In this document: piece after piece, positions 23,165 through 60,045 of the stretch
How the letters are laid out: every line of letters begins with the position of its first letter
Position numbering within the stretch: position 1 is the first letter of the stretch
Source of the DNA: Proteiniborus ethanoligenes
Lineage (GTDB): Bacteria > Bacillota > Clostridia > Tissierellales > Proteiniboraceae
DNA: 64,000 nucleotides
Assembly (NCBI RefSeq): GCF_900107485.1
Contig: NZ_FNQE01000003.1
Coordinates: 1-64,000 of the forward strand
Direction: 5' to 3'
The notes under the pieces: generated by a model
The model's database searches: none
What the model saw: only the letters and a program-made list of their open reading frames with translations
Told to the model about the DNA's origin: nothing
Made by a program: the position numbers and the translations under genes

Positions 23165-23824
23165 TTATAGCTTTTTTATGTTGTTTTTAAATGTAAATAT
23201 GGCTGCTTGTACTCTATCAGTAACATCAATTTTTTTGAAAATCTTTGAAACATGGTTTTTAACAGTTTTCTCACTAATAAAAAGTTTTTCTGCTATTTCT
23301 CTATTATTCATTCCTTCTGCTATAAGTGTAAGTACTTCGTATTCTCTTTTAGTTAAGGATTCTATAAACGATGCCTCTTTGCTTTTACCTTCTATTGAAT
23401 TAATGTCTTTCACTAAAAGCTCAGATAAACTAGGTTGTATATAAGACTTTCCTTTATGTACATCTTTTATTGCACTTATTAAAGTATCCGAATCTGAATC
23501 CTTTAATACATAACCGTTTGCACCTATTTTTACTGTTTCGTATAAGTATTCTCTATCATCATGTATGGTTAGCATAATAATTTTAGAATCAACGCCTATA
23601 TCCTTTAATCTTCTCAACACATCTAAACCATTCATTTTAGGCATATTTATATCTAGTAATATTACATCTGGTTTGCTCTGTTGAGCATATTTAATAGAAT
23701 CTTCTCCATTAGATACTAAACCTACAACTTCGATATCATTCTCTAGCTCAAGTATTTGTTTAAGCCCTTCTCTCATTAGAGAATGATCATCTACTATCAT
23801 AACAGTTATTTTTTTGTCATTCAT
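23165..23824 (-). CDS. degU: DegU-type response regulator
   Basis: The 219-residue protein has a receiver domain (5-120) with phospho-acceptor Asp in DVILLDINMPKMNG and conserved Lys in YVLKDSDSD, and a LuxR/NarL HTH (LTKREYEVLTLIAEGMNNRE, then SEKTVKNHVSKIFKK) at 150-215. It is the partner of the histidine kinase encoded upstream, whose gene it overlaps by 8 bases. DegU controls exoenzymes, motility and biofilm in Bacillus. Targets here are not shown, but the adjacent surface protein and CheW are candidates. Confidence 0.9.
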   Translation of the reverse strand: MNDKKITVMIVDDHSLMREGLKQILELENDIEVVGLVSNGEDSIKYAQQSKPDVILLDINMPKMNGLDVLRRLKDIGVDSKIIMLTIHDDREYLYETVKIGANGYVLKDSDSDTLISAIKDVHKGKSYIQPSLSELLVKDINSIEGKSKEASFIESLTKREYEVLTLIAEGMNNREIAEKLFISEKTVKNHVSKIFKKIDVTDRVQAAIFTFKNNIKKL

Positions 23825-24983
23825 TTATAACTTCCTCTCTTTCTAAAGGTATTGTAAGCAAGACCTTAGTGCCCTCTCCTAGGGAAGAAATAATATCTAA
23901 TTTACCACTTAACAATTCAGCTCTCTCTTTCATGCCAATAAGTCCATATCCCCTTAAATCTTTGCTTCTTTTCAGTTTATCTTTTTCAAAGCCTATTCCA
24001 TTATCTTTGATTACGATAAAAAGCTTGTCCACAGCGTATTCAATTTTAATTAATACTTCTTTAGCTTTTGAATGCTTAGATACATTATTTAAGGCTTCTT
24101 GAATTATTCTAAAACACGCTATTTCAATAATAGGCTTAATATCTTCTGGATTATCTAGTATCATCAGGTCTACATTAATACCTGTCTCCTCCATAAACTT
24201 ATCAATATACCTTTGAAGTGTAGGGATAAGGCCTAAATCATCTAAAGACATAGGTCTTAAATCATATATTATTCTTCTTACATCTTTTATACTATTTCTA
24301 GCAATATCTTTCAATTCATTTAATTCATCCTTTGCTTGGCTTAAGTCTATATTGAGCAATTTCTCACATAGCTCTGCTTTCAATACCACATTTGCCATTG
24401 ATTGAGCTGGTCCATCATGTATTTCTCTCGAAACTCTCATACGCTCTTCTTCTTGAGCCTCGATAATTTTAATTCCTAAAGATTGTTTTTTATTCATATC
24501 CTCAATGGTTTCAAATATATCGTTTAGATTTCCCTTTAGGAAATCCATGGCTACACCAACCTGGGATACAAGTCTCTCAGCTTTTTCAACAATTTCAAAT
24601 GTTTTTCTTAAGGATACCTCTAAACTATTTCTCTTAGAAATTAGTTCCTTTTCTTCTTGTCTCTTTAAAACTAGCCTTACTTTTATGTTATTTGCCTCTT
24701 CATAGGCTAATCTAATATCCTGCTCAGAATATTTGTTAAAATCCCTGCTTACTACCATAAGCTTAGATTTTGTTCTTCTCTCTTCTCTGGCCAAATCATC
24801 TGTTTCTAATATTACTGCCGAGATTTTATCTTGAATAGCATTAATTTCATTTTTTATGCGTTCACATTCTTTACGAGCATTTTCAGCAATATCAAAAATC
24901 TCTTTTCTTCCACTATCTATTGTATTAATAGTTTTTTCAATTATTTCATTCATTCTTTTCAAATCTAACGATGGCTTAGACAA
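23817..24983 (-). CDS. degS: DegS-type sensor histidine kinase
   Basis: The 388-residue cytoplasmic protein has an N-terminal coiled coil (1-160) with no membrane helix, the DegS layout. The HisKA_3 phospho-site is REIHDGPAQSMANVV and the HATPase domain has IKDNGIGFEKDK and GYGLIGMKERAELL. It autophosphorylates on His and passes the phosphate to DegU. The start is TTG (24,981-24,983) with AGAGGTG six bases upstream; a GTG three codons earlier overlaps that site. It forms an operon with degU by an 8-base overlap. Confidence 0.9.
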   Translation of the reverse strand: MSKPSLDLKRMNEIIEKTINTIDSGRKEIFDIAENARKECERIKNEINAIQDKISAVILETDDLAREERRTKSKLMVVSRDFNKYSEQDIRLAYEEANNIKVRLVLKRQEEKELISKRNSLEVSLRKTFEIVEKAERLVSQVGVAMDFLKGNLNDIFETIEDMNKKQSLGIKIIEAQEEERMRVSREIHDGPAQSMANVVLKAELCEKLLNIDLSQAKDELNELKDIARNSIKDVRRIIYDLRPMSLDDLGLIPTLQRYIDKFMEETGINVDLMILDNPEDIKPIIEIACFRIIQEALNNVSKHSKAKEVLIKIEYAVDKLFIVIKDNGIGFEKDKLKRSKDLRGYGLIGMKERAELLSGKLDIISSLGEGTKVLLTIPLEREEVINE

Positions 24984-25030
24984 TATAAACACCTCTAAAA
25001 AATCCGTTTATTACTATACACAGTCTAATA

Positions 25031-25486
25031 CTAAACTTGGAGATTATCTATTTTTTCTTTTTCTTCTTCTGTAAGGACTCTTTCTAAGTCAATTAAGATT
25101 ATTAGCCTTTCATCAAGCTTACCAACTCCAGTAATGTACCTTCTATCTATTCCTGCTATTATATCTGGTGTTGGATCAATATTAGAGTCGTCAAGTCTAA
25201 CAGTTTGAGAAGCCTCATCAACTAAAAAGCCAATTTGTTTCTCATTTAAGTTGATTACTATTATTCTAGTATTTGCATCTGCTGTACGCCCTTCCATGCC
25301 AAATCTTTTCTTTAAGCATACTATAGGTATTACATTACCTCTAAAGTTAATTATTCCTTCAACAAACTTAGGTGCATTAGGTATTTTTACACTTTCTTGA
25401 TACTGGACGATTTCTCTAACATTCATTATATCTATTCCGTACTCTTCCCTTCCAAGTTTGAAAACAACATATTGATTTTCAGACAA
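25031..25486 (-). CDS. cheW: CheW-like chemotaxis coupling protein
   Basis: The 151-residue protein begins MSENQYVVFKLGREEYGIDI and carries the SH3-like CheW fold with VREIVQYQ, INFRGNVIPIVCLKKRFG and IGFLVDEAS. CheW links chemoreceptors to CheA. The start is TTG at 25,484-25,486, directly behind AAAGGAGG; a longer frame upstream lacks a good site. No cheA, receptor or flagellar gene is in the window. The gene lies 48 bases upstream of degS on the same strand, so it may be cotranscribed with it. Confidence 0.88.
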   Translation of the reverse strand: MSENQYVVFKLGREEYGIDIMNVREIVQYQESVKIPNAPKFVEGIINFRGNVIPIVCLKKRFGMEGRTADANTRIIVINLNEKQIGFLVDEASQTVRLDDSNIDPTPDIIAGIDRRYITGVGKLDERLIILIDLERVLTEEEKEKIDNLQV

Positions 25487-25591
25487 TTTAATATCCTCCT
25501 TTAACAATTGTTTACTTACTTTATTTCTACAATCTTTTCGTTTTTCCTTCAAAAAAATTATAAAACGTATTATTTAGTTCCAAATACCTCA

Positions 25592-25851: not shown

Positions 25852-27111
25852 CTAATTACGCTCTATTACTATTTCTCCATTTTTAATTACTTTATCTACA
25901 TGATTTATTCCAAAATGATATATAATATAATTAATATTAGGCGAATCGAAAATAACAATATCTGCTTTTTTGCCTATTTTTATGCTACCTATGCTATTTT
26001 CTCTTTTAAGAGAGCAGGCACTATTTATAGTAACTGCTGAAAAAACTTCTTCTGGAGTCATCTTCAACATAATTGAAGCAAAGGACATTACCAGTTGTAA
26101 ATTTTCAGTTGGGCTACTTCCTGGGTTATAGTCTGTGGAAAGAGCAACAGGTACTCCTAATTCTATCATTTTTCTTGCATTTGCGTATTTCCCAGAGCCT
26201 AGATTAAAGGATGTAGCAGGTAGTAGATCTGCAATAACTCCATTTTCAGCCATCATTTTCATGCCTTGCTCACTTGCTGCTACTAGATGGTCTGCAGATA
26301 CTGCACCTATCTCTGCTGCCAGTTCTGCTCCCCCTATAGGTTCAATCTCATCTGCATGAAGCTTTGAATACATACCATATTCTTTGGCCTCATTCAATAT
26401 TCTTCTTGTTTCTTCTATTGTAAATACTCCTTCTTCGCAAAACACATCACAAAATTCAGCCAATTTTTCTTCTGCTACTTTTGGAATCATTTCATTTATT
26501 ATTATCTTAACAAATTCTTCTCTATTCTGTTTATATTCTAGGGGTATTGCATGAGCTCCCATAAATGTAGAGACAATATCTACAGGGTGGTTTTTATTAA
26601 GCTCCTTTGCTACTCTTAGCTGCTTAAGCTCAGTTTCTATATCTAATCCATACCCGCTTTTAGCTTCTAGTGTAGTTACTCCAAATTCAAGCATTATATT
26701 AAGGCTTTTTTCAGCTTTTTTGTATAGCTCTTCAAAAGAAGCATTTTGTGTAGCCTTAACTGTACTTAGTATTCCTCCTCCTGCTTTCAATATGTCCATA
26801 TATTTCATCCCATTTAGCTTCATAGGCAATTCATTTTCTCTTGAGCCTCCGTGTACTAAATGTGTATGAGGATCTATTAAGCCTGGAGTAACAGTTTTTC
26901 CCCTGCCATCGATTATCTTTGTTTTTTCATGACTTTCTATATCATCTGGTAGTTCGCCTTCTCCAACATAAATGATCTTATCTCTTGCTATGACAACTAT
27001 GCCATTTTCTATTAATCCAATGTTTTTCATTTCTTCTTTTATTCTAGGTTTATCAGGTCCTTCCATTGTAACTAACTGAGAAATGTTTTTTATTACAATA
27101 TCAGCCTTCAT
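25852..27111 (-). CDS. hutI: Imidazolonepropionase
   Basis: The 419-residue protein has the amidohydrolase metal motif DPHTHLVHGG (His82, His84), later metal ligands in KLHADEIEP and ADHLVAASEQG, and STDYNPGSSPTENLQ near the C-terminus. It hydrolyses 4-imidazolone-5-propionate to N-formimino-L-glutamate, step three of histidine degradation. The ATG at 27,111 has AGGGTGAT ahead. It is the last gene of hutH-hutU-ftcD-hutI, 9 bases from ftcD, and ends in a strong terminator. Confidence 0.95.
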   Translation of the reverse strand: MKADIVIKNISQLVTMEGPDKPRIKEEMKNIGLIENGIVVIARDKIIYVGEGELPDDIESHEKTKIIDGRGKTVTPGLIDPHTHLVHGGSRENELPMKLNGMKYMDILKAGGGILSTVKATQNASFEELYKKAEKSLNIMLEFGVTTLEAKSGYGLDIETELKQLRVAKELNKNHPVDIVSTFMGAHAIPLEYKQNREEFVKIIINEMIPKVAEEKLAEFCDVFCEEGVFTIEETRRILNEAKEYGMYSKLHADEIEPIGGAELAAEIGAVSADHLVAASEQGMKMMAENGVIADLLPATSFNLGSGKYANARKMIELGVPVALSTDYNPGSSPTENLQLVMSFASIMLKMTPEEVFSAVTINSACSLKRENSIGSIKIGKKADIVIFDSPNINYIIYHFGINHVDKVIKNGEIVIERN

Positions 27112-27120
27112 AAAATCACC

Positions 27121-28017
27121 CTATTCATATATTCTCTTTTCTAGTATCTGATCTTCTCTGAAGTTTTCAATCTTCAAATAATAATCTGCACAGTTGATTA
27201 ACGCCATCATAGGTACTAAGCCTATTATTTCGCTTCCAATCACATTTACTCCGTATCTATTAGCTTCTCTTTCAATCATGTCAAATACCCTATAAAGTGG
27301 CGTGCTTATATAGTCTACCATATTCATAGTGACCTGAACTATGTTTCTTTCTTTTATCTCTACGCCTAAAGCCTTGCAGGCTGTAAATCCTCCATTTCTA
27401 CCTCTTACGCTTTTAGCTATTTTATTCGCTATTTCTAAGTTATCAGTACCTAAATTAACATTAAATGCAACAAGAGGCATTCTAGCTCCAACTGCTGTTG
27501 CTCCTGCCTTTACATTTAGAGTATCTGGTCCATAATCGGGCTTCCATTCGTTATCTTTCATTTTTTCATTCATATTTTCATATTGACCCTTTCTCACAGA
27601 AGCGAGATTTTCTCTATGAGAGGCACTTGCAGATTTTTCATAAAGAAATACAGATATCCCTAGTTCTTCTCCTATTCTTTTCCCTATTCTTTTAGACATT
27701 TCTATACACTCTTCCACAGTCACATCAGTTATAGGGATCAAAGGTATCACATCTGTGGCTCCCATTCTAGGATGCTCACCCTTATGCTTACTCATATCTA
27801 TAAGCTCCGCTGCTTTTTTACATGCATTAAATGCTGCTTCTTCTACTGCCTCGGGAGTCCCTATAAAAGTAGTTACACATCTGTTATGATCCTTATCCAT
27901 TGAATAATCTAGTAGCTTTGTCCCTTCTACTTTTCTTATTTCATCAATGATTTTTTCTATAAGGATTTTATCTACACCCTCACTAAAATTTGGGACACAT
28001 TGAACTATTTTAGCCAT
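27121..28017 (-). CDS. ftcD: Glutamate formimidoyltransferase
   Basis: The 298-residue protein begins MAKIVQCVPNFSEGVDKILI and has the characteristic HPRMGATDVIPLIP and conserved basic stretches of the formiminotransferase domain. It transfers the formimino group from N-formimino-glutamate to tetrahydrofolate, giving glutamate and 5-formimino-THF. The length matches the transferase-only form, without the cyclodeaminase domain. The cyclodeaminase (fchA) is not in this cluster and must be elsewhere. The start follows a GGGGGAG site. It lies 16 bases downstream of hutU. Confidence 0.94.
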   Translation of the reverse strand: MAKIVQCVPNFSEGVDKILIEKIIDEIRKVEGTKLLDYSMDKDHNRCVTTFIGTPEAVEEAAFNACKKAAELIDMSKHKGEHPRMGATDVIPLIPITDVTVEECIEMSKRIGKRIGEELGISVFLYEKSASASHRENLASVRKGQYENMNEKMKDNEWKPDYGPDTLNVKAGATAVGARMPLVAFNVNLGTDNLEIANKIAKSVRGRNGGFTACKALGVEIKERNIVQVTMNMVDYISTPLYRVFDMIEREANRYGVNVIGSEIIGLVPMMALINCADYYLKIENFREDQILEKRIYE

Positions 28018-28033
28018 ACTATCTCCCCCTTGT

Positions 28034-30058
28034 TTATTTATATGCCTTTTCTACAAGAGAACTGATTAAGCCCTCATCTGGAATATATGGTAATGTTATA
28101 TGATCACTATCCTTGTGCATATTGTTATACTCTATACATGTCTCGATGGAGTTTTCATTCCTTCCCCATGCGCGTCTTGCCACACCCCCCATTACATCCC
28201 AAGGTATGGCCATTCTTATAATATTGTCTACCCTTTCACTACCATCTAATACCAGTCCGAATCCACCGTTTATTGATTTGCCTATTCCTACTCCACCACC
28301 ATTGTGAAGTGCTACTAAACTCATTCCCCTAGCTGCATTTCCTGCAAAGCAATGAGTAGCCATATCAGCCATTATGTTGCTTCCATCTTTAATATTTGAG
28401 GTTTCTCTAAATGGAGAGTCAGTTCCACCGGTATCATGATGGTCTCTTCCTAGCATTATAGGCCCTACTTCTCCATTTCTAACCATTTCATTAAATTTTA
28501 GGGCTATGTCTCTTCGTCCTAGTGCATCTTGGTAAAGAATTCTTGCCTGTGTACCTACTACTAGCCTATTTTCTTCTGCATCCCTTATCCATACATAATT
28601 ATCTCTATCTTGTCCTCTTCGATTAGGATTGATAGCATCCATAGCAGCATTGTCAGTTTTTATAAGGTCTTCATGATTCCCGCTTAAGCAAACCCATCTA
28701 AATGGTCCATAGCCATAATCAAATAAAAGTGGCCCTAGTATATCTTCTACATATGAAGGGAATATAAAGCCTTCACTTTCATCTGTACCATTTTTAGCTA
28801 TATCCTTAGCTCCAGCATCAAATACAGCTTTCATAAAGCTGTTTCCATAATCAAAGAAATAAGTACCTCTATTGGTCAGTTCTCTAATAAGATGAAAATG
28901 CTTTATAAGTGATTTATCTACTAACTCTATAAATTTGCCCTTATCACATTTTAAAAGCTCTGTTCTCTCTTCAAAGCTCAAGCCTTGTGGACAATATCCA
29001 CCATCATAGGGTGCATGACATGAGGTTTGGTCTGATAAAAGCTCTATATAAATATTGTTATTTACTGCATATTCAAGTAAATCCACTATATTTCCATGAT
29101 AAGCAATTGAAATAGGCTCTTTCTTTTTCATGTATTCATCTGCCCAACTGAAAATCTCTTTTAAATCATTGGAAGCTCTAGTTATCCAACCTTGGTCTAG
29201 TCTTGTTTGGATTCTAGAATAATCCACTTCTGCTATTATTCCTACACCTTTAGCTATTTCCACAGCTTTACCCTGTGCTCCGCTCATACCTCCAAGACCT
29301 GAAGATACAAATAAATGGCCTCTTAAATCTCCATCTTCAGCAACACCTAGCTTTATTCTTCCAGCATTTAATATGGTGTTAAAAGTTCCATGAACTATTC
29401 CCTGAGGTCCTATATACATCCAACCACCAGCGGTCATCTGCCCATAGTTAGCTACACCCATAGCCTGCGCTTTGTTCCAATGGTTTTGATCATCAAACAT
29501 TCCAATCATTAATGCATTAGTTATTATTACTCTAGGACTTTCCACGCTAGATTTAAAAAGCCCAACAGGATGACCAGAAGCTATTACTAAAGTTTGCTCT
29601 TCTGTTAATACCTCTAAATATTTCATGATTAGTCTATATTGCATCCAATTTTGACAAACCTGACCTGTTTCCCCATAGGTAACTAGCTCATATGGATAAA
29701 GTGCTACATCAAAATCAAGATTATTATCTATCATTACCTGAAAGGCTTTGCCTTCTATGCAATTTCCCCTATATTCATGTATAGGTCTTCCTTTAATATT
29801 GCCTTCTGGTCTATAACGATAGCCATATATCCTTCCTCTAGTCATTAATTCTTCTAAAAACTCCGGTGCTAGCTTTTCATGTAGCTCTGCTGGTATATAC
29901 CTAAGTGCATTTTTAAGAGCTATTTCCGTTTCCCTTTTCGTCAATGTGAATTCTCTCTTTGGTGCTCTCCTAACACCTTGAGTAAATTTAGGTGCAGGTG
30001 GTAGATGGTTTTCAAGCTTAATAGTCATTGCCTTTGAAATATTAAGATTATTAATCAT
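28034..30058 (-). CDS. hutU: Urocanate hydratase
   Basis: The 674-residue protein shows urocanase signatures: SSGLGGMSGAQGKA in the NAD-binding region, QTSCHAPYDGGYCPQG, and ALHNGGGVGIGKSINGGFG near the C-terminus. It adds water to urocanate, giving imidazolonepropionate, using tightly bound NAD. Length is in the range of long Clostridia-type urocanases, which have an N-terminal extension compared with the 550-residue Bacillus form. ATG at 30,058 has AGGAGGAGG upstream. It is 13 bases downstream of hutH. Confidence 0.95.
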   Translation of the reverse strand: MINNLNISKAMTIKLENHLPPAPKFTQGVRRAPKREFTLTKRETEIALKNALRYIPAELHEKLAPEFLEELMTRGRIYGYRYRPEGNIKGRPIHEYRGNCIEGKAFQVMIDNNLDFDVALYPYELVTYGETGQVCQNWMQYRLIMKYLEVLTEEQTLVIASGHPVGLFKSSVESPRVIITNALMIGMFDDQNHWNKAQAMGVANYGQMTAGGWMYIGPQGIVHGTFNTILNAGRIKLGVAEDGDLRGHLFVSSGLGGMSGAQGKAVEIAKGVGIIAEVDYSRIQTRLDQGWITRASNDLKEIFSWADEYMKKKEPISIAYHGNIVDLLEYAVNNNIYIELLSDQTSCHAPYDGGYCPQGLSFEERTELLKCDKGKFIELVDKSLIKHFHLIRELTNRGTYFFDYGNSFMKAVFDAGAKDIAKNGTDESEGFIFPSYVEDILGPLLFDYGYGPFRWVCLSGNHEDLIKTDNAAMDAINPNRRGQDRDNYVWIRDAEENRLVVGTQARILYQDALGRRDIALKFNEMVRNGEVGPIMLGRDHHDTGGTDSPFRETSNIKDGSNIMADMATHCFAGNAARGMSLVALHNGGGVGIGKSINGGFGLVLDGSERVDNIIRMAIPWDVMGGVARRAWGRNENSIETCIEYNNMHKDSDHITLPYIPDEGLISSLVEKAYK

Positions 30059-30071
30059 ACTTTTCCTCCTC

Positions 30072-31601
30072 CTAATAATATATTTCTCCTATGGATTTCT
30101 CTATGCTTTTTATAATTATACCTGACTTTACAATATCTTCGCATTTATTTATCTCTACATTCATTATCTGATCGTTCTCAAGAGTTTTTATTTTCTCTCT
30201 GATAATATGATATGCAACTTGAGTTCCCTTGCCAAGTCCTTTGTTTCCTCGTAAATCTATGGCTTGACATGCTCCCAACAATTCCATTGACAAAACCTTT
30301 CTTGCATTATCTAATATGGCTCTTGCCTTTCTTGCTGCTATAGTTCCCATAGATACATGATCCTCTTGATTTGCAGATGAAGGTATAGAATCTACACTTG
30401 CTGGGTGAGCAAGAACCTTATTTTCTGAAACTAAAGAGGCTGCTGAGTATTGTACAATCATAAAGCCAGAATTAAGTCCACCATTTTTCACTAAAAATGC
30501 AGGTAATCCGCTTAAGGCTGGATTTACCAATCTCTCTAGTCTTCTTTCAGAAACATTGGCAAGCTCAGCTAATGCTATACCAAGAAAATCAAAGCTAATT
30601 GCCATAGGCTGCCCATGAAAATTACCTCCAGATATTACTTCTTCTACATCTTCAAATATAAGAGGGTTATCAGTAGCAGAGTTAATTTCAATCTCTACTT
30701 TTTCTTTAACATATTTTATAGCATCCTTACTAGCACCATGAATTTGAGGAAGGCATCTAATAACATAAGCATCTTGAACCCTTATTTGACCTTGCTCTGT
30801 AGTCATTTTGCTATCCTGTAAAATTCTCAATAAATTTTTTGCTGTGTTTATTTGACCTTCATGAGGTCTTACCTGGTGTACCTTTTCATCAAAGGCTGTG
30901 ACTATTCCATTTAAAGCCTCTACAGTCATAGCAGCGCTAACATCTGCCATCTTGCTAATATTTATTGCATCATAAACTGCTAATGCACCTATTGCTGTCA
31001 TTACCTGAGTACCATTAATAAGTGCCAACCCTTCCTTAGATGTAAGCTCTATAGTTGGAACATTGGCTTTCTCCATGGCTTCCTTTCCAGACATTCTAGC
31101 ACCTTTGTAGAAGGCCTCACCTTCTCCCAGCATTACAAGTACCATATGTGAGAGAGGTGCAAGGTCGCCACTTGCTCCTAAAGAACCCTTTTCAGGAATT
31201 ACAGGATGAACTCCCTTATTTAGCATTTCAATTAAAGTGTTCAGAGTTTCAAGTCTTATTCCCGAATACCCCTTTGCTAAAGCATTTGCTCTTAGGAGCA
31301 TAACCCCCCTTACTATTTCTTCATCTAAAGGCTCTCCAACTCCACATGAATGGCTTATTATAAGGTTTCTTTGAAGGGTCCTTGCTTCCTTTTTAGAAAT
31401 AACCACATCACTAAATTTGCCAAAACCTGTCGTAATTCCATAAACAACTTTTTCTTCATTCACGAACCTATCAACTAGTTCCCTTGATTTTATTACTTTA
31501 TCTATAGCATCAGTAGATAATTGCACTTCATAATTATTTCTAGCTACGTGAACAATATCCTCTATCCTGAGACTATTTCCATCTAATATTACTTTTCTCA
31601 C
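30072..31601 (-). CDS. hutH: Histidine ammonia-lyase
   Basis: The 509-residue protein has the MIO-forming Ala143-Ser144-Gly145 in GSLGASGDLAPLSH, plus YGITTGFGKF and the conserved NALAKGYSG. It deaminates histidine to urocanate, the first step. The start is GTG at 31,599-31,601, seven bases after GAGGAG; an in-frame TTG upstream overlaps that site. It is the first gene of the hut operon. A promoter candidate lies 50 bases upstream. Confidence 0.96.
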   Translation of the reverse strand: MRKVILDGNSLRIEDIVHVARNNYEVQLSTDAIDKVIKSRELVDRFVNEEKVVYGITTGFGKFSDVVISKKEARTLQRNLIISHSCGVGEPLDEEIVRGVMLLRANALAKGYSGIRLETLNTLIEMLNKGVHPVIPEKGSLGASGDLAPLSHMVLVMLGEGEAFYKGARMSGKEAMEKANVPTIELTSKEGLALINGTQVMTAIGALAVYDAINISKMADVSAAMTVEALNGIVTAFDEKVHQVRPHEGQINTAKNLLRILQDSKMTTEQGQIRVQDAYVIRCLPQIHGASKDAIKYVKEKVEIEINSATDNPLIFEDVEEVISGGNFHGQPMAISFDFLGIALAELANVSERRLERLVNPALSGLPAFLVKNGGLNSGFMIVQYSAASLVSENKVLAHPASVDSIPSSANQEDHVSMGTIAARKARAILDNARKVLSMELLGACQAIDLRGNKGLGKGTQVAYHIIREKIKTLENDQIMNVEINKCEDIVKSGIIIKSIEKSIGEIYY

Positions 31602-31652
31602 AATATCACTCCTCAATTATTATCATAATTAGGTTTTATTATCTATTCTTTA

Positions 31653-32294: not shown

Positions 32295-33299
32295 TTATAA
32301 TATTTTAGCACAGCTTTCTCGTTTTTGTATTTGGAAAGGCAGGATAATAGTATCTTTATCCACTTTTTCTTTTTTTATTTCCTTTATTATTCTTCTTATA
32401 GCAACTGCTCCTATATCATAGAAAGGCTCCTTTATTGTAGTTAATCTAGGTCTAAATATTGATGCTGTCTTAATATCACCATAGCCTGCTACAGACATTT
32501 GATCTGGAACCTTAATATTGTTATCATGCAAATAGCTTAGTACACCAATTGACAATTCATCGTGACTACAGAATATTGCTGTAATTTCATCATTAGAGCT
32601 AATTATATCCTTGCATATTTCATAGCCATCATCTATGTTCCTTCCCTTAGCATAATATATTTTTTCCTCATAGCCTTCATTTTCTGATATAGCTTTCTTA
32701 TAACCTTCAAGCTTTATCATTTCTAGAGAGTTTTCTTCTTCACTAGATGATACATATGCTATATTTTCATGTCCTAGGCTGATTAAATAATTTGTCATTT
32801 CATAAGTTGCCTCAAGGCTATCAATGGTTACAGTAGGGAAATCCTCATTAGAAAAGTATCTATTTAGATAAACAAAGGGCATTTTAAAATCCTTTATTTG
32901 GTTATCTATTTCCTTATTTAAGGAGTCCGAAATAAGTATTATTCCTTCTGCTTGTTTTCTGCTTAAAATCTGCATGTATTTTATTTCTGCTGCTTTATCT
33001 CCATATGTACTACATAGTAATATATCGTAGTCGTACATTTTCCCAACCTCTTCTATGCCCCTTACTAATTGTGCAATATAAGTATCTCCTAAATCAGTTA
33101 CTATAACACCTATTAAGAATGATTTCTTAGTTACTAATGTTCTAGCAACCTCATTTGGTTTATATCCAATTTCATTTATTACCTCTAAAACCTTTTGCCT
33201 TATTTCTGGGCTTACTGGCTTGGAATTATTTATTACTCTAGAAACCGTAGATATAGATACTCCAGCCATTTTAGCCACATCTTTAATAGTTGCAGTCAT
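32295..33299 (-). CDS. LacI-family transcriptional regulator
   Basis: The 334-residue protein has an N-terminal LacI HTH (TIKDVAKMAGVSISTVSRVI) and a hinge around NEIGYKPNEVARTL. A type I periplasmic-binding-like sugar-sensing domain follows (60-330), with FCSHDELSIG and the C-terminal RPRLTTIKEP. The family usually represses sugar catabolic operons; none is adjacent, so the targets are elsewhere or global (CcpA-like). The ATG at 33,299 has GGAGG upstream. It is monocistronic. Confidence 0.9.
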   Translation of the reverse strand: MTATIKDVAKMAGVSISTVSRVINNSKPVSPEIRQKVLEVINEIGYKPNEVARTLVTKKSFLIGVIVTDLGDTYIAQLVRGIEEVGKMYDYDILLCSTYGDKAAEIKYMQILSRKQAEGIILISDSLNKEIDNQIKDFKMPFVYLNRYFSNEDFPTVTIDSLEATYEMTNYLISLGHENIAYVSSSEEENSLEMIKLEGYKKAISENEGYEEKIYYAKGRNIDDGYEICKDIISSNDEITAIFCSHDELSIGVLSYLHDNNIKVPDQMSVAGYGDIKTASIFRPRLTTIKEPFYDIGAVAIRRIIKEIKKEKVDKDTIILPFQIQKRESCAKIL

Positions 33300-33399: not shown

Positions 33400-36300
33400 T
33401 TATAGCATAGCTGCTATTATGTCACTAATAGTATTTACAAAGTTATAGCTATTATAGTCAAATTCTTTTTCTTTAATAGGAACAGTTATTTTAAGTACTC
33501 CTTTAATCTCACCATTGTTTATAAGTGGAACTGCTATAATTGATAACCAATTAGGCTTTCCAGTAACTAAATCTATTCCTCTTATATCCTCCCAATCAAT
33601 AAAGAATTTACCTATTTGTTCATTTATTATTTCATATATTACCTTATCGTTACATTCAGGATTCTCAGCCCATATATCCAAAAACCTCTGTCGACCATAA
33701 ATGTTTTGGATATTTTGGTCTTTATCCACTATAATAAGTGTTCCTTTTTCTGCTTCTAATATTTCTATTAGTCTTCCAAGTATTCTAAATATTTTATCTT
33801 CTTTTGATGATTTTTCTCTCATTAATTCTATTATTTCTACTAACACAAGTCCTATTCTTTGATCGTGAACAGTATTCCCTGTAATGATTCCTGCTAATTT
33901 ATCTAGCCTTTTATTAGATTTTCCTATATCATCACTCCAAATGATGCTCTTATTTCTACCAAGTTCTTTTGCATTATACAATGCCTGGTCTGCCTTTTCA
34001 ATAAGCTCATCTGGGGTCTGACCGTGATCAGGAAAAGATGATATGCCTAGGCTTATTGTAATAGGATAATCTTCATTTATCATTACTGTTTTTTCTACTG
34101 ATTTTCTTATTTTTTCTGCAATTTTTTTACCCTGATCCTTGTTAGTATTCGGTAATATAATAATGAATTCTTCTCCACCATATCTACCTACCATATCAGT
34201 TTTTCTTATATTTTTCAAAATTATATTCCCTATACGATTTAATATTTCATCCCCCATTCTATGTCCAAAAGTATCATTTACATTTTTAAATTTATCTAAA
34301 TCTAGCATAATAACTGAAAATTCAGTTCCACTTCTTCTTGCTAATAGGATAAAGTCTTTAAAAATACTATCAAAATACTTTCTAGTATAAGCACCAGTCA
34401 TTTTATCTATTGATGAGATTATTTTAAGGATATAATTATCAATATTAATAGAAATAAGATGAGAAAGGGCATCAATAATTTTAAGTCTTTTGTTATCAAA
34501 TTTATTAAATAGCTTATCAGTATCTAAATACAAATATCCAATAATATCTTCATTGTTAATATGAGTGTACGATTTACGTCTTTCAGCTACCTCTTCTATA
34601 TGATCTGATGCTTGTAGCTTGAATATAGGCATACATATAATGGCTTTTATGTTATCATCAGCATATTGTAATTGTTCCTGTTCTTCATAGTCAAAGGATT
34701 TATTAATAAGAATTCCTCTGTTTTTTTTCTTTACCTCGGACAAAATCCGTTCTTCTTCAGGTATAATATCATCTTCTGATGTTGACGCTACAGTAACTAG
34801 CTCTCCAGATTCATAATCATGAACACAAATTATCCCTCTATTTGCATAGGTCTTGTCCACTGCATACTTAAGTATCATATTTAAATTATGATTATAATTG
34901 TTGCTTAGTTGCAGTATTAGTTCTTCAAAGCTATAAACACCCTTTAAGGAAGGATCTGAGTCTTCTTTTATGTCGAAATTAAAAATATTTTCATTAAATA
35001 ATTCTACAATTTTTTTGATGTTAAAGTAATCTTCTAGTTCCATAGCCTCAGTGAATTCAATAGTATTAATATTTAATGCATTATCACCCTTTATGACTAA
35101 AACTATTTTATTTAGCTTTGATATAATTTCTGAAGCCATGTTCTTTTTAACAAAATTCACTTGCAACTTCTTATTAGGTATCTTTCTTGTTAGTCTATAT
35201 AGCAAATCTAATGCAGTTAAATAATAATTAGCTGATTTGTAATATTGTTTATTCTCAAAACAAATATCGCCAAGCTCAACATAATTGGATAACTCAACTC
35301 TATAATGTCCTGAGTTTTTTACCCTTTTAGATACATTAGTTAACTGTTCATAATTCTTGTTGAGTTTTCCTATTGTCATATCTCTCAATATGTCCAGATA
35401 TTTTGTAGTATACTTTCCTATCAGTTTATCGTCCTCTAAAAGCAAGTCTTCCGCTAATTTAGCATTATCATATATCATCAATGTGTTTGCAAGCGTTAAT
35501 AAAGCCCTTCTTCTTTCCCCACAGTAACCACTTAGTCTATATAGTTCTCTTACGTTCTCTATATTTTCTTCTGTTGCATTACGTTCTTCACAATATTCTA
35601 ACAAAACTTTTTTTAAGTAAGAGTCTAATTTTAAAATATTTTCAAGCTGATTGCAGCTCTCTATTGTCTTATTAAAATATTCTAGTGCTTTATCACATAC
35701 TCCAAATGTAAAATAAAATTCACCTAAAAAATAATAATATCTTGAAATGTACTGTTCTTCAACAAAGCCTTCATCAAATGTTTTTTTCACTTTCTCATAA
35801 AGTTTATAGCATTTATCAAATTGACCAATGCGCAAATATATCAATCCTAGATTAATATAAGACAAAAATAGTAACCCTTCATCTTCAATATCCTTAGCAA
35901 TATTTTCTACCTTCTTTATATAATCTTTAGCCAGAGCATAATCGTTTGTTCTAAAATAAAGCTCTCCAATATTATTGAGAAAGTTTCCTTCTGTTTCTAG
36001 GGATTGATATTTTTTTGTAATCTCTAAGCCTTCTTTAAAGTAAGCCATTGCAAGATCTATGTCGTCGAAATATTCAGAATATATGGACCCAATATTGTTA
36101 AGCGCTCTAGTAGACTCTGCAAGGTCTCCTGATTTTTGAAGATACTGGTAGCTAGTTACGAAGTAATCTAGTGCTTGTTCTATCTGGTCTGTAAAGGCCT
36201 TTATTATGCCTTTATGGTTATATAAATAACCTGCATATAAATCGAAATCATGTTCCTTAGCCATATCTAGGTATTTATCAATATGTTCTAGTACTGTATC

Positions 36301-38784
36301 GTATTCTCCCTTAGATATATATATTTTATAAAGATTCCTTATGGATTCTAACAATTCTTCAGTATAATCATGATCTTGTGAAATCTTCTTTGCTTGGTCT
36401 GCATGCTTCTCTGCTAAATCCATATCATATCTTCTAAGAAAAACGGAAGATAATCCATTATTACAAATTGCTATATATTTATTTTCCTTAAGCTCTTCAG
36501 CTATTTTTAATCCTTCTTTATAGCAATTTATCGATTTCCCAGTCATACCATGAAGTAAATATAAGCTTCCTAAATTAGTTAATACTTCTAGCTTGTGTAT
36601 GTCTCTTCTGCCCTTCATAAGCTCATTAGCATTTTCCCACAGATGAATACATTGAATATTTCCTACTAAGCCTTTCATTTTCTTTGCATTCAATATTGTA
36701 TGCTTAATAGCCTTATCAAGCTGCTTAGACATATTATAGTGATAGATGAGCTCGTCTACATTGCCTCTATCCTGCTGGATATAAGTTTGTTCTAAAATTT
36801 CAGCAGCTTTTCTGTGAAGCTCTTGTTTCTCATCTTCTTTAATATCACTATAAATAAACATCTTAATTTGTCTATTATAGAAATCATAAGTATAACCCCA
36901 ATCCTCTACTCTCTCGTCTAGTATTTTCATTGAGGCCAGCTTATCAACTAATTGATCTGAATCTATACCATAATCCTCAGCCAATTTTCTAATAATAGTT
37001 TTAGATACGGAAGTATTAAATATTGAGATATATTTAGCTATATCATATAATTCCTTATCTAATAGCTTAATCTGCCTTTTTATAGCATCTCCAATATTAG
37101 ATGGTATGTATAAGCTTGCATAGTTTTTCGTTGGCACATCCCAGTTTCCTTTTTCATTAATGAAAAGCTCTCCTGTTGCTACAAGGTTTTTTATGGCTTC
37201 CTCAATGTACCCAGGATTACCTAAGGTTTCATTCATAACTCTTGTTGAAAAATTAATAGCTTTATAGCTTATTCCTAAAATACTTTTTATTAAATCTGAA
37301 GTTTCGTTTAGATTTAAACGAAACAGCCTATACTCATGAGCTTTCCTAGATTTTATCCATGTATTAATTGTGTCATTGAGGGCCTTTTTCTTTTCCAGCA
37401 TGTCCTTATGATATGAAGCAATTAATATTAACGGAACTTGTCTGCCGCTATTTATTAAATAATTTAACAAATTAATAGTTTCTATATCACTGTTATGAAG
37501 ATCATCTATCAATATATAGGTTGGATTATTCTTTATGTTATCAATTATGAAATTAGTAATTCTATCATATAGTCTAAGTCTTTCCCTTGTGCCACTAAGC
37601 ATTGATGAAGGTTTAATATCTCCTGACTCAGAAATTTCTGGAATTATTTTAACTAATTCACAGCCGTATTTTTCTATAAGATATGAATCACAGTCTTTTA
37701 TCATGCTCCTAAGTATTTTAATAATTCCGCTTAGCTCTTTTGCATTTGAATCTGTAATGGAAGTATAAAATACAGTTCTTCCTCTCATTCTCAGTCTATA
37801 TTCCAGCTCTTCCAATAGTCTAGTTTTGCCTATACCATCTTCTCCAGTAAATGATATTAGTTTTTTATCTAAATTATTATTTCCAATGTTCTTGTCAATA
37901 TCTAAAACAATATTGATTTCTCTATCTCTACCAACTATAGGATGATTGAAAATCAATTTGTTTCTACTTTCTTTTAATTTTAATCTATAGTCTTTTCCAA
38001 ATATTTTGTTAATTTCATTAACTATTTCAGTTGGCTCAACAAGCCTTAAGGATAAATCCTTGTTTACTAATCTAGATATTAAATCATCAATTAGGTCTTC
38101 TTGATTTTTATTAAGCTTTAAATGGCTTGCAGCTTTAAAAGCATGTCCAATTAAATTCGGTGCTTTCCCTATTAACATAGTTTTAAGTAACATCCCAATA
38201 GAATATATATCTGAGCTATTATTAGCATTATTATATCTAGCCTCTGGAGCCATATAGTCACTGTACTCATCATTATAAATATTTTTTCTTTCTCTTAGGA
38301 TTATCTCTGCAAAATCATTTAATTTAATTTTAAAATTGTCCCTATCATCTATAACAAATATGTTGTCTGGATTTATATACCTATAAGGATAGCCCCTAAA
38401 AGCTAAATAAGACACAACCTCTAATAGCTGCACAACAATAGATAGTATTTGTTCAATATTCAATCTTCCGATATAGCTAGTGAGTTTATTGCTATTAACA
38501 TAATCCATAGTATAAAAGTATTGTTTAACTATAGTTGGCTTGTTATCGATAGAATTTACAATATCAAAGCTATGATTCGATATAATTCCTTTATGTTTTA
38601 AGCTGCTAATTTCAATAAAAACATGGATAAATTCATCAATAAGGGTAGCATTTTTGTCTCCACTAAGCAGCTTTAACAGTAGCTCTTCGTTATTATTCCA
38701 TAGGTCGTGTACTGTAAAAATAGTACTATCATCGTAGACCTTGTATGTATCTTTTATTCTATATCTATTGTTAATAAGTTGCAT
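33400..38784 (-). CDS. Giant signalling protein: pseudokinase, AAA ATPase, TPR array, GAF, GGDEF, GAF
   Basis: The 1,794-residue protein starts with a Ser/Thr-kinase-like domain (about 5-255). In its catalytic loop the HRDxKPxN motif reads YRYINPDN, losing both the catalytic Asp and the Lys. The metal loop is DFA instead of DFG, while APE is kept (YMAPEAR); it is therefore a likely pseudokinase. An AAA/STAND-like ATPase follows, with GEDGIGKT (314-321) and ILIDDLHNSD. A TPR array spans about 640-1,190 and a GAF domain about 1,260-1,420. The GGDEF domain has GGEEF (1,536-1,540) and an RxxD inhibitory site (RKTD five residues before). A C-terminal GAF-like domain ends the protein. It should make cyclic di-GMP in response to signals. 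The ATG at 38,782-38,784 has a weak GGGGGTAGGG site; no nearby partner gene is seen. Confidence 0.85.
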   Translation of the reverse strand: MQLINNRYRIKDTYKVYDDSTIFTVHDLWNNNEELLLKLLSGDKNATLIDEFIHVFIEISSLKHKGIISNHSFDIVNSIDNKPTIVKQYFYTMDYVNSNKLTSYIGRLNIEQILSIVVQLLEVVSYLAFRGYPYRYINPDNIFVIDDRDNFKIKLNDFAEIILRERKNIYNDEYSDYMAPEARYNNANNSSDIYSIGMLLKTMLIGKAPNLIGHAFKAASHLKLNKNQEDLIDDLISRLVNKDLSLRLVEPTEIVNEINKIFGKDYRLKLKESRNKLIFNHPIVGRDREINIVLDIDKNIGNNNLDKKLISFTGEDGIGKTRLLEELEYRLRMRGRTVFYTSITDSNAKELSGIIKILRSMIKDCDSYLIEKYGCELVKIIPEISESGDIKPSSMLSGTRERLRLYDRITNFIIDNIKNNPTYILIDDLHNSDIETINLLNYLINSGRQVPLILIASYHKDMLEKKKALNDTINTWIKSRKAHEYRLFRLNLNETSDLIKSILGISYKAINFSTRVMNETLGNPGYIEEAIKNLVATGELFINEKGNWDVPTKNYASLYIPSNIGDAIKRQIKLLDKELYDIAKYISIFNTSVSKTIIRKLAEDYGIDSDQLVDKLASMKILDERVEDWGYTYDFYNRQIKMFIYSDIKEDEKQELHRKAAEILEQTYIQQDRGNVDELIYHYNMSKQLDKAIKHTILNAKKMKGLVGNIQCIHLWENANELMKGRRDIHKLEVLTNLGSLYLLHGMTGKSINCYKEGLKIAEELKENKYIAICNNGLSSVFLRRYDMDLAEKHADQAKKISQDHDYTEELLESIRNLYKIYISKGEYDTVLEHIDKYLDMAKEHDFDLYAGYLYNHKGIIKAFTDQIEQALDYFVTSYQYLQKSGDLAESTRALNNIGSIYSEYFDDIDLAMAYFKEGLEITKKYQSLETEGNFLNNIGELYFRTNDYALAKDYIKKVENIAKDIEDEGLLFLSYINLGLIYLRIGQFDKCYKLYEKVKKTFDEGFVEEQYISRYYYFLGEFYFTFGVCDKALEYFNKTIESCNQLENILKLDSYLKKVLLEYCEERNATEENIENVRELYRLSGYCGERRRALLTLANTLMIYDNAKLAEDLLLEDDKLIGKYTTKYLDILRDMTIGKLNKNYEQLTNVSKRVKNSGHYRVELSNYVELGDICFENKQYYKSANYYLTALDLLYRLTRKIPNKKLQVNFVKKNMASEIISKLNKIVLVIKGDNALNINTIEFTEAMELEDYFNIKKIVELFNENIFNFDIKEDSDPSLKGVYSFEELILQLSNNYNHNLNMILKYAVDKTYANRGIICVHDYESGELVTVASTSEDDIIPEEERILSEVKKKNRGILINKSFDYEEQEQLQYADDNIKAIICMPIFKLQASDHIEEVAERRKSYTHINNEDIIGYLYLDTDKLFNKFDNKRLKIIDALSHLISINIDNYILKIISSIDKMTGAYTRKYFDSIFKDFILLARRSGTEFSVIMLDLDKFKNVNDTFGHRMGDEILNRIGNIILKNIRKTDMVGRYGGEEFIIILPNTNKDQGKKIAEKIRKSVEKTVMINEDYPITISLGISSFPDHGQTPDELIEKADQALYNAKELGRNKSIIWSDDIGKSNKRLDKLAGIITGNTVHDQRIGLVLVEIIELMREKSSKEDKIFRILGRLIEILEAEKGTLIIVDKDQNIQNIYGRQRFLDIWAENPECNDKVIYEIINEQIGKFFIDWEDIRGIDLVTGKPNWLSIIAVPLINNGEIKGVLKITVPIKEKEFDYNSYNFVNTISDIIAAML

Positions 38785-38976
38785 TTCCCTACCCCCAGAG
38801 TACAAACTACCTTAATTACCAATTTATATTCTACTTTCCACAAATAAATGTCACATCCATGATATTATAACATATATATAAAGTTTTTTTAACAATTTAA
38901 ATTATTTTTTTGATTTTTATAGACTTTTTAAATTATCTATATTTTATTTTACACATACATGAAAAGGCTAAGAGAT

Positions 38977-39022
38977 AAATAAGCGTTCAGATAACCCAAC
39001 AACCCAACCTGAACGCTTATTT
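38977..39022 (-). terminator. Terminator of the MarR-MATE operon
   Basis: AAATAAGCGTTCAG (38,977-38,990) pairs with CTGAACGCTTATTT (39,009-39,022), a 14-bp perfect stem. It lies about 35 bases beyond the MATE stop on the minus strand and could also serve the opposite strand. Confidence 0.8.
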
Positions 39023-39057
39023 CTTGCACAGTATGAAATTCAAACTAGTATTTTATT

Positions 39058-40479
39058 CTATACATTAACATATTTCCATTTTCCACCTTTAAATATAAAG
39101 AAATACAATGTACCTCTCACTATTAAATCTAAGCTCATAGCAATCCAGGCCCCTATCAATCCCCAATTAAGAACTATTGCAAAAAGATAAGCAAAAACTA
39201 GTCTAACCCCCCAAATTCCAGTAAGAGTTATTACTAAAACTCTCCTAGTGTCTCCTGCACCTCGTAGAGCACCAGAAAAGCCCATGACTGCTGCTAAGAA
39301 TGGTTGAGATATGGCTACGATTCTTAGACATATTCTAGCAATACTAAGTATTTCCTTATCTTTAGTGAAAATCATGAGAAAATAATCAGGCCATATAAAG
39401 AAAAATACTCCAACAATGGCCATTAAAATAGCTCCCATCTTAACAGCTATAAAACCACTTTTTTCTGCTAATTTAGGTTTTTCTGCTCCTAAGTATTGTC
39501 CTACTAATGTGGTTGCAGCAAGGGCAAATCCAAATCCAGCATTAAAGGATAAGGATTCAGCAGTCATAGTTATTCTATGAGCAGCAAAGGTTACAGTACC
39601 TAATGATGATACTATTCTACTAAACAATAGTTGTCCAAACCTCATAAGAAACTGCTCTATAGCTGCAGGAATACCTATGTTGAATATCCTTCTTATAATA
39701 TCTACATTTAATTTAAGCTTTTCTTTAAAATCTATTTTAACAAATCTACTTCCTTTTATTAGAATCACTACTATTATAACAAAGCCTACAAATCTTGAAA
39801 ATGTAGTAGCTATACCAGCACCGTCGACTCCCCATCCTGCTCCTGGTGCAAAAAAAGATATGCTTTTATCTATAAAAGGTATGTTTATATTCACTGTTCT
39901 ACTTTCATAAATTAGAAAAAAGTTTCCTACAATGTTTACAATGTTTGAAATACCATTTATATACATGGGAGTCTTAGTATCTCCACCACCTCTTAATACG
40001 CCATTCATTATCATAGTTATAATCATGAAGGGCAGGCCCCAAACATTGATTTTGAAATATGAAGCAGATATAGGAATAACATCAGGTTCTGCTCCCATAA
40101 GCTTTACAATTGGAGTAGCAAGCAATAAGCCTAAAATCATAAATACGGCAGACATTATTACACTCAATATTAGAGATTGTCTGGCTACCTCATTAGCTTC
40201 ACTTTGTTTTGAGGCACCAATAGCTCTTGCTACTAGAGCTGTTGTACCTACACTTATGGCAGCAAAAAAAGACATTGCTGTCATCATAGGCATATCACTT
40301 AACCCTACTGCTGCAATTGCACCAGCTCCTAAGCTTCCTACCATTGCCATATCGGCAAAGCCTAAAAGTGTTTGCATTAGCATTTCTCCTATTGCAGGTA
40401 AAGCAAGCTTTAAAGTGTTTTTTTCTAAATTGGTCTCAGGTAATCCCTTGTTTTTTATATCTAATGCTTCTTCAGACAT
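39058..40479 (-). CDS. MATE-family multidrug efflux transporter
   Basis: The 473-residue protein has about 12 membrane helices in two six-helix halves. Conserved MATE features include the start KLALPAIGEMLMQTLLGFADMAM, GLPFMIITMIMNGVLRGGGDT and the matching GFSGALRGAGDTR in the second half. These carriers export cationic drugs in exchange for sodium or protons. The ATG at 40,477-40,479 was taken because GGAGG lies 11 bases ahead; a TTG two codons earlier is an alternative. It follows the marR gene with a 6-base gap, so MarR probably controls it. Confidence 0.9.
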   Translation of the reverse strand: MSEEALDIKNKGLPETNLEKNTLKLALPAIGEMLMQTLLGFADMAMVGSLGAGAIAAVGLSDMPMMTAMSFFAAISVGTTALVARAIGASKQSEANEVARQSLILSVIMSAVFMILGLLLATPIVKLMGAEPDVIPISASYFKINVWGLPFMIITMIMNGVLRGGGDTKTPMYINGISNIVNIVGNFFLIYESRTVNINIPFIDKSISFFAPGAGWGVDGAGIATTFSRFVGFVIIVVILIKGSRFVKIDFKEKLKLNVDIIRRIFNIGIPAAIEQFLMRFGQLLFSRIVSSLGTVTFAAHRITMTAESLSFNAGFGFALAATTLVGQYLGAEKPKLAEKSGFIAVKMGAILMAIVGVFFFIWPDYFLMIFTKDKEILSIARICLRIVAISQPFLAAVMGFSGALRGAGDTRRVLVITLTGIWGVRLVFAYLFAIVLNWGLIGAWIAMSLDLIVRGTLYFFIFKGGKWKYVNV

Positions 40480-40485
40480 ATGCAA

Positions 40486-40944
40486 TCAATCCTCCTTGAC
40501 GCTTTCCTCAATCATTACGTTATATAAGTGTTTGAGACCTTTAAGTAAAAGCTCTTTTTCATTTTCACTTAAGTCTGTTAATTTCTCAGATAAATATTCT
40601 CTTCTCTTTTTTAATACTTGCTTAACAATTTCATTCCCCTTTGGCTGAACCTTTAATCTAACTACTCTTTTATCCTGCTCATCCTTTTCTCTAAGGACTA
40701 GCTCATTTTTCTCCATTCTATCTATTAAATCTGTTATTGTGCTACAGGCTAAAGACATCCTTTGGCTTAGCTCTCCTATTGTAAGCTGTTGATTATTTAC
40801 TATATGCTGAAGAGCAATAAACTGAGGATCCGTTATATTCATATGGCTCAATATTTCTCTACCTTTTTTTCTTATTATCCAATCTGTTTTTCTTAAGTAC
40901 TTTTCTATTAATTCTACGTTAGTTTCTACTCCATCCTTATGCAC
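40486..40944 (-). CDS. MarR-family transcriptional regulator
   Basis: The 152-residue protein begins MHKDGVETNVELIEKYLRKT and has the winged HTH (LTIGELSQRMSLACSTITDL, then wing NELVLREKDEQDKRVVRLKV with the D-x-R-x-x-x-V/L signature). MarR proteins repress adjacent efflux genes and are released by small ligands. The start is GTG at 40,942-40,944 behind GGAGGTGGAGAG. It is the first gene of the operon with the MATE pump. A promoter candidate lies just upstream. Confidence 0.9.
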   Translation of the reverse strand: MHKDGVETNVELIEKYLRKTDWIIRKKGREILSHMNITDPQFIALQHIVNNQQLTIGELSQRMSLACSTITDLIDRMEKNELVLREKDEQDKRVVRLKVQPKGNEIVKQVLKKRREYLSEKLTDLSENEKELLLKGLKHLYNVMIEESVKED

Positions 40945-40979
40945 CTCTCCACCTCCAAATATATTTCGTCTCACTAAAT

Positions 40980-55248: not shown

Positions 55249-55575
55249 AATATAAACATATAAAATAATATTCTCATTGTTCTTGGCATTAGCACCACAC
55301 AAATACAGTAGGTTGCTGCAAGATCATCAAGCCAAACCTCTCCCTTGCTCTAAATAAGAAATATTTTACTATTAAATTGTAAATACATTTTATCATATTA
55401 TTGTAGGTATACAAGCTGTTTATAAAATTTGGTTTTCAAAAATTAATTCTTTTTCAGCATCTTTATACGTGCCTATCTAAAAGTGGGACAAGGCTCCTGT
55501 CCCTGCGTCCCTGCTATTTCAAAATACATGTTCTATAATTTTATTATCTGTAGTTTCCTCACTCTTTAACAGGTT
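55249..55575. other. Intergenic between relE and the 102-residue gene
   Basis: No gene is seen. It contains a GGGACA...TGTCCC hairpin (55,485-55,503) of a kind dispersed in Clostridia genomes. Confidence 0.45.
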
Positions 55576-59870: not shown

Positions 59871-60045
59871 AGCCATCCCCCTTTTAATGTCCCAATAGCT
59901 GTTAATTATTTTAAGTATCGTTTGCCTAAGGAATTATGTCGAATATGATTGTTATATCTTTACCCTATTAATGCTATTTTAAATAACATTTACAGTAATA
60001 GTTCCCTTTATTTTAAGTCAAGTTAAATTGCTTCTTTGCAATAAA

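Follow-up and report, generated by a model that had tools for sequence, protein, structure and literature searches.

Results

The window, which is the whole stretch of DNA analysed here (64,000 nucleotides of Proteiniborus ethanoligenes; positions 1 to 64,000 of contig NZ_FNQE01000003.1, RefSeq assembly GCF_900107485.1), carries on its minus strand a giant gene whose product combines an N-terminal protein-kinase fold, an ATPase of the STAND (signal transduction ATPases with numerous domains) type, a tetratricopeptide repeat (TPR) region and a GGDEF diguanylate cyclase flanked by GAF-like regions (Table 1). The open reading frame (ORF) runs for 1794 codons from an ATG at 38784 without internal stop. 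The ORF list gives a longer frame (33400–38805) with a TTG start, and 33400–38784 is the likely gene because GGGGGTAGGG lies just upstream of the ATG on the minus strand. This start and the Pfam matches bear out the giant multi-domain protein proposed in an earlier note on this DNA, which had also described a kinase-like domain without the HRD aspartate and with DFA for DFG, and an intact cyclase with its I-site, and had suggested that the pseudokinase and the ATPase gate the synthesis of cyclic di-GMP (c-di-GMP).

Table 1. Features of the giant gene, its product and the neighbouring genes, in window coordinates.
Feature	Position	Strand	Basis
Giant pseudokinase-STAND-TPR-GAF-like-GGDEF-GAF-like protein, 1794 aa, ATG start	33400..38784	-	ORF call, Pfam
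Promoter-like TTAAAA-17-TATAAT with TG, ahead of the giant gene	38864..38892	-	consensus match only
N-terminal protein-kinase fold, residues ~1-262, catalytically degenerate	37999..38784	-	Pfam Pkinase (49.9 bits, cut-off 31.7), AF2 model, PknB fold match
K38, VAIK-lysine position, kept	38671..38673	-	alignment with own PknB
Catalytic loop YRYINPDN for HRDLKPxN, residues 134-141	38362..38385	-	alignment
DFA for DFG, residues 157-159	38308..38316	-	alignment
STAND nucleotide-binding oligomerisation region (AAA_16/NBD, helical domain, winged helix, arm start), residues 266-700	36685..37989	-	Pfam AAA_16 (49.3 bits, cut-off 32.6), signature columns
P-loop GEDGIGKT, residues 314-321	37822..37845	-	Lys in 96/99 rows
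STAND GxP motif GNP, residues 522-524	37213..37221	-	Gly 99/99, Pro 94/99 rows
Winged-helix histidine H657	36814..36816	-	His in 98/99 rows
TPR sensor region, residues ~701-1229	35098..36684	-	Pfam TPR_12, TPR_MalT, TPR_8 (above cut-off)
GAF-like region ahead of the cyclase, residues 1230-1445, no Pfam call	34450..35097	-	GAF position in relatives, Foldseek
GGDEF diguanylate cyclase domain, residues 1450-1620	33925..34437	-	Pfam 157.8 bits (cut-off 23.8); 3ign TM by target 0.92
I-site RKTD and active-site GGEEF	34165..34206	-	sequence, family columns
C-terminal GAF-like domain, residues 1625-1794, just below Pfam cut-offs	33403..33912	-	Pfam
MarR-family regulator, conserved upstream neighbour	40486..40974	-	family search
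Multidrug-efflux-like gene (MATE, named by eye), between MarR and giant in the window lineage	39058..40485	-	
LacI-family regulator, CcpA-like, conserved downstream neighbour	32295..33299	-	family search
hutH, hutU, ftcD, hutI (histidine degradation), downstream, same strand	25852..31616	-	family search

An AlphaFold model of residues 1–700 (mean pLDDT 87.4, pTM 0.84) was compared with solved structures using Foldseek, and residues ~1–262 are assigned to the kinase fold because PknB structures head the matches (5u94 at rank 2, TM-score by target 0.75); JAK2 pseudokinase domains are within the top 50. Kinase motifs were placed by aligning 97 kinase domains of the family with PknB of the Proteiniborus genome, in which YRYINPDNI of the window protein aligns to HRDIKPHNI. 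The Gly-rich loop is gone, the alphaC Glu position is Val, HRD reads YRY and DFG reads DFA; K38, the catalytic-loop Asn141, DFG-Asp157 and the APE motif are kept. Among the residues of an active Ser/Thr kinase (VAIK Lys, HRD Asp and DFG Asp), the HRD Asp is thus a Tyr, and the Gly of DFG is an Ala. The motif readings of the earlier note therefore hold, and the alignment with relatives, run to find a catalytic Asp elsewhere, shows none in the window protein in either the HRD column or the catalytic-loop Lys column. Judged from its sequence, the N-terminal region is a kinase fold in which a complete kinase active site is not present.

The giant has many relatives: another protein of the same large family of clostridia was already described in 2005 (PMC1262709). 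Within the order, relatives at E ≤ 1e-60 were found in 60 of 249 genomes, with 52 rows longer than 1700 aa besides the window protein, and all three genomes of the genus, its own included, have the giant. In a class sample of 391 genomes, a profile built on the first 700 residues found matches in 50 (the own genome and three of the order included); of the 59 matches from beyond its own genome and order, 40 were fetched in full and analysed. An ATPase-region tree of 99 rows, made by a quick method, unrooted and with the kinase columns excluded, splits them into 83 and 16 (SH-aLRT support 100 for the branch). An alignable kinase domain is present in 81 rows of the 83-row clade. The kinase alignment omits L129 (internal stop, kinase outside the same open frame) and a partial second ORF of L114, and the 81 rows omit the kinase-less fragments L028 (second piece), L058, L060 (both pieces), L061, L068 and L069. 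Lys, HRD-Asp and DFG-Asp occur together in 0/81 kinase domains of this clade versus 9/16 rows of the other branch, so that the pseudokinase assignment extends well beyond the window protein. Taken singly, the clade rows keep the Lys in 48 cases, an HRD-column Asp in 3, the DFG-Asp in 52 and the DFG-Gly in 2, and Tyr fills the HRD-His column in 61. The natural reading of these sequences is that the catalytic set was lost within the 83-row clade.

The other branch is diverse in output. L119, L121 and L124 combine intact Gly-loop, HRD and DFG motifs with a HisKA_3-HATPase output; L127, L128 and L135 carry PAS-HisKA-HATPase and L126 LuxR; L131, L133 and L137 carry GGDEF, and L132 and L134 also match the GGDEF profile. 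The nine rows with an intact set comprise five with histidine-kinase output (L119, L121, L124, L128, L135) and four with GGDEF output (L131, L133, L134, L137), and six of them (L128, L131, L133, L134, L135, L137) are without the Gly-loop and the catalytic-loop Lys. Because L131, L133, L134 and L137 have both an intact set and a GGDEF domain, cyclase output alone is not tied to loss of the set. Only in the 83-row clade is the set strictly absent, and almost every complete member of this clade also has the C-terminal GAF-like domain.

Several family members are unusual in form. The giant of G241 (L028) is broken by one in-frame stop into two ORFs, and that of G199 (L060) by many stops. On contig 12 of G398 (L109/L114) two giants adjoin on one strand (257535 and 263123) as a tandem pair; in family f39, two profile matches occur in 8 of 16 matched genomes, and G398, the sole one inspected, showed the tandem. 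L223 (NZ_CP154629.1), which carries a giant homologue with 27% identity, is listed as a plasmid of Acetoanaerobium noterae; its size of 2.63 Mb suggests a chromosome. A pattern scan for named relatives in single-protein form found none, and of the 80 loci kept in a second scan, the one from Tissierella sp. P1 aligns with the greater part of the query, the others chiefly with its GGDEF part.

The cyclase is well preserved. Its sequence RKTD-MVGRY-GGEEF places an RxxD I-site five residues before the GGDEF loop, as the earlier note had read it. In diguanylate cyclases an Asp of the GGDEF domain binds metal and an Asn and an Asp bind guanine; the window protein has these residues and the GG[DE]EF loop, and is predicted to be a diguanylate cyclase. 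All 79 GGDEF domains of the clade keep the metal Asp pair, the guanine-binding Asn and Asp, the GG and the second E; the final F of the loop is kept in 73/79, the I-site Arg in 74/79 and the I-site Asp in 77/79. The GGDEF part of a C-terminal model of moderate quality (pLDDT 79.3, pTM 0.44) fits solved cyclases. As for the two GAF domains of the earlier note, both are better called GAF-like: the C-terminal one scores just below the gathering thresholds (GAF_2 24.3 versus 28.6 bits, GAF 22.2 versus 22.4 bits), and the one ahead of GGDEF, which has no Pfam call in the window protein, is suggested by the homologous position in relatives and by fold matches to sensor-GGDEF proteins. The second copy of G545 (L118:3343-8071) has kinase, ATPase, TPR and C-terminal GAF-like regions and no GGDEF match, so that its cyclase output appears to be lost or replaced. 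Three c-di-GMP-I riboswitches, two EAL domains and one PilZ domain are present in the Proteiniborus genome, which therefore has readers of c-di-GMP. The window itself encodes a further c-di-GMP protein, of PAS-GGDEF-HD type, at 57702-59876 on the same strand as the giant.

The nucleotide-binding oligomerisation region (NOD) of STANDs is marked by a P-loop, a GxP motif and a winged-helix His that touches ADP, features shared by MalT and PH0952 (PMC6468293). All three are found in the window protein, in agreement with the STAND-like ATPase proposed earlier, and are conserved in both branches of the 99-row alignment (Table 1). Together with the helical-domain position of GxP, the arm and the repeat sensor, as judged from these columns and from the order of helices and strands in the model, they identify a STAND protein; the winged-helix His was assigned by order and conservation, without structure superposition.

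The kinase domain is under purifying selection, constrained and not decaying. In seven pairs, its ratio of nonsynonymous to synonymous substitution rates (dN/dS) is 0.080, 0.239, 0.169, 0.137, 0.089, 0.154 and 0.179, although the pairs are few and hand-picked. The ATPase gives 0.070–0.142 in the same pairs, and the other domains span 0.036–0.237, a range that holds every kinase value except 0.239. In 5/7 pairs the kinase domain is less tightly constrained than the ATPase, and in 5/7 its dN/dS exceeds that of GGDEF. Synonymous divergence (dS) of the kinase domain is ~1.9 for the window–L009 pair and 1.37 for another, and both pairs are to be discounted.

The genomic place of the gene was surveyed in 43 loci (ORFs ≥ 100 aa, BLAST clusters, family names tested on window genes only); very likely one genome is counted twice, as L143 (Tissierella sp. 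P1) and L251 (G235) have the same gene order. MarR lies immediately upstream of the giant in 30/43 loci and is present in 36/43; LacI lies immediately downstream in 31/43 and is present in 32/43. MarR, giant and LacI share one strand with mostly short gaps. A YegS-type lipid kinase is present in 40/43 loci. In 31/43 a gene of the HutH cluster lies on the giant's strand; the counts for the clusters of HutU, FtcD and HutI are 18, 19 and 18. By search coordinates, LacI is directly downstream on the same strand in 48/60 giant-bearing genomes, with gaps of 23–223 bp. The LacI of the window scores 284 bits against the CcpA cut-off of 442, and a LacI orthologue is found in 212/249 genomes of the order at E ≤ 1e-75.

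A survey of empty sites covered 20 LacI loci; they come from G205, where the giant is elsewhere, and from 19 genomes in which no giant was found at E ≤ 1e-60. MarR adjoins LacI in nine of them (G158, G005, G025, G188, G189, G190, G204, G205, G006) and was not seen beside LacI in the remaining 11. In G158, a remnant of 74 residues of the giant C-terminus (L264:6240-6461; 53% identity to the window protein) stands directly upstream of LacI, and G157, G159 and G160 of the same genus retain the gene. These empty sites and the remnant point to vertical descent with losses, the giant gene being old at the MarR–LacI site and lost more than once. Copies at other places were found in G205, G246 (second copy) and G581.

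In the window, the giant gene may have its own promoter, since an inverted repeat (~38978-39025, found by eye) and the promoter-like site of Table 1 lie between it and the MATE-like gene; promoter-like sites in the region number 72 versus 60.2 expected in shuffles.

Discussion

We consider the giant most likely to be a cytosolic STAND-type signalling protein with c-di-GMP output, in which the kinase fold serves as a binding and autoinhibition module, and we hold this view with moderate confidence. At rest, the NOD would hold ADP and be kept closed by the arm and TPR sensor together with the docked pseudokinase. Binding of a ligand or protein to the TPRs, the GAF-like domains or the pseudokinase would open the NOD, which would swap ADP for ATP, and protomers would then assemble. 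GGDEF domains act as dimers, and since diguanylate cyclases need two of them facing each other, assembly could activate the cyclase by putting two GGDEF domains face to face; the c-di-GMP made would shut the cyclase off at the I-site. The pseudokinase would no longer transfer phosphate in this scheme and would act in binding and autoinhibition. The NOD switch is proposed because STANDs with a TPR sensor are described as exchanging ADP for ATP and then forming head-to-tail multimers in the PH0952/MalT paper (PMC6468293). Gating of c-di-GMP synthesis by pseudokinase and ATPase, as the earlier note suggested, is our best inference for the window protein. For the clostridia-wide family, the chances seem to us evenly balanced that the Hanks-type fold began as the catalytic N-terminal module of a kinase-STAND receptor and, as a pseudokinase, now provides allosteric input to c-di-GMP synthesis through a STAND assembly switch.

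Several points weigh against this interpretation. An HRD-column Asp is found in 3/81 clade rows (L042, L120, L123), never alongside the DFG-Asp, and 6/81 rows, including the presumed Clostridium thermocellum protein discussed below, carry one two residues further along, at the position of the catalytic-loop Lys. The fewest changes on the unrooted tree are five for the intact set and seven for the HRD Asp, and because the tree is unrooted, the branches could also be related otherwise than by loss within the clade. Kinase dS exceeds 1.3 in 2/7 of the few pairs used for dN/dS. The GAF domain ahead of the cyclase is weakly supported. Finally, K38, the catalytic-loop Asn and the DFG-Asp are kept in the window protein and in 28/81 clade rows, by virtue of which the window protein could still bind nucleotide or carry out an unorthodox transfer.

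The best-surviving alternative, which we nevertheless think unlikely, is that the pseudokinase is a passive relic on a STAND-regulated diguanylate cyclase and could be removed without effect. The drift of kinase motifs between lineages, seen in the alignment of 97 domains, fits such a relic, but dN/dS values of 0.08–0.24, similar to those of the other domains, do not, nor do conserved positions of the clade's own such as the Tyr in the HRD-His column. Somewhat more doubtful still is a partnership in which the giant works with its MarR, LacI and hut neighbours and reports, for example, histidine or carbon status via c-di-GMP. The shared strand and short gaps, the LacI gene directly downstream in most giant-bearing genomes and the frequent HutH-cluster gene would favour it; however, MarR stands directly beside LacI in nearly half of the sites where the giant is missing, LacI orthologues are far more widespread than the giant, and some giants lie elsewhere. 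Since these neighbours remain in place at sites that have no giant, we regard this gene order as stable background and not as evidence of partnership. The earlier statement that no partner is adjacent is incomplete as to the neighbours, conserved MarR and LacI/CcpA-like genes, which give no evidence of a partner either; the MarR-giant-LacI-hut order, at first sight a functional cassette, was set aside as support for a partnership, as giant-less relatives keep much of the block. Least probable is an unorthodox active enzyme that uses K38, Asn141 and Asp157 to bind nucleotide and, lacking the HRD-Asp, passes phosphate or AMP to the cyclase part or another protein: the residues it needs are all kept in the window protein, and 37/81 rows keep Lys and DFG-Asp, but the window protein has lost the Gly-rich loop and the alphaC Glu, 53/81 rows are without at least one of Lys, Asn and DFG-Asp and 18/81 without both Lys and DFG-Asp, so that the set is not conserved.

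A giant of this kind is already in the literature. Krupa and Srinivasan listed an 1826-aa 'STYK' of C. thermocellum ATCC 27405 with kinase, TPR and GGDEF regions as a Ser/Thr kinase in 2005 (PMC1262709); these are in the same order as in the window protein, and the report's passages on this protein describe neither the ATPase region nor a family-wide pattern. The G581 giant, which lies in the 83-row clade and is exactly 1826 aa long from its first ATG, is presumed to be the same protein, and its motifs (LKNLDHKSV and GMP) show the catalytic set to be absent there too. Bacterial pseudokinases, largely unexplored experimentally, were reviewed by O'Boyle et al. (2025; PMC12599244), including the CP1 family fused to COG3899. 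CP1 proteins combine a non-membrane Ser/Thr-kinase fold with a predicted ATPase and GAF/PAS sensors, ~40% of them being classed as pseudokinases, and are the family nearest to the giant, as the kinase fold is fused to a predicted ATPase in both (PMC12599244). The main text of the review mentions neither GGDEF nor TPR (PMC12599244), whereas the giant clade is clostridial, lacks the set in 81/81 rows and has cyclase output. Closer at hand, the kinase-ATPase-TPR-GAF-histidine kinase fusions L119, L121 and L124 (open frames of 1709–1771 aa) have the same N-terminal half as the giant and differ from it in their intact motifs and their output. The AAA_16 region of the giant is presumably its COG3899 part, and the CP1 architecture would then fit. 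MalT and PH0952 resemble the giant in their NOD, with its P-loop, GxP motif and winged-helix His, and in the TPR sensor that comes after it (PMC6468293), but MalT is a transcription activator, and the giant has an N-terminal pseudokinase and a C-terminal GGDEF domain instead.

Open-licence full texts combining pseudokinase and GGDEF were a Caulobacter CckA study and a visualisation of Caulobacter polar microdomains only, and among the matches listed for pseudokinase and c-di-GMP, none was on such a fusion by its title. Kinase-ATPase fusions, STANDs and cyclases were already known; what is new is that a whole clade is without the kinase catalytic set while its cyclase is strictly conserved. As the fused cyclase stays intact, the output of the pseudokinase could be followed with a simple c-di-GMP assay, and the branch with intact kinase motifs is a natural comparison. 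If our interpretation is true, STAND switching, known mostly from transcription factors and immune proteins, would be joined to c-di-GMP signalling, and the clostridial family would be a bacterial counterpart, in logic, of pseudokinase-gated receptors. Should the pseudokinase prove passive, what is left is a large cyclase of STAND type that carries a decorative domain.

Other features of the window

A CheW-like protein, a DegS-like histidine kinase and a LuxR-type response regulator are encoded in a row at 23165-25552, and their clusters recur in 12, 13 and 17 of the 43 neighbourhood loci. A SAM (S-adenosylmethionine) riboswitch was detected at 55271-55360 (60 bits).
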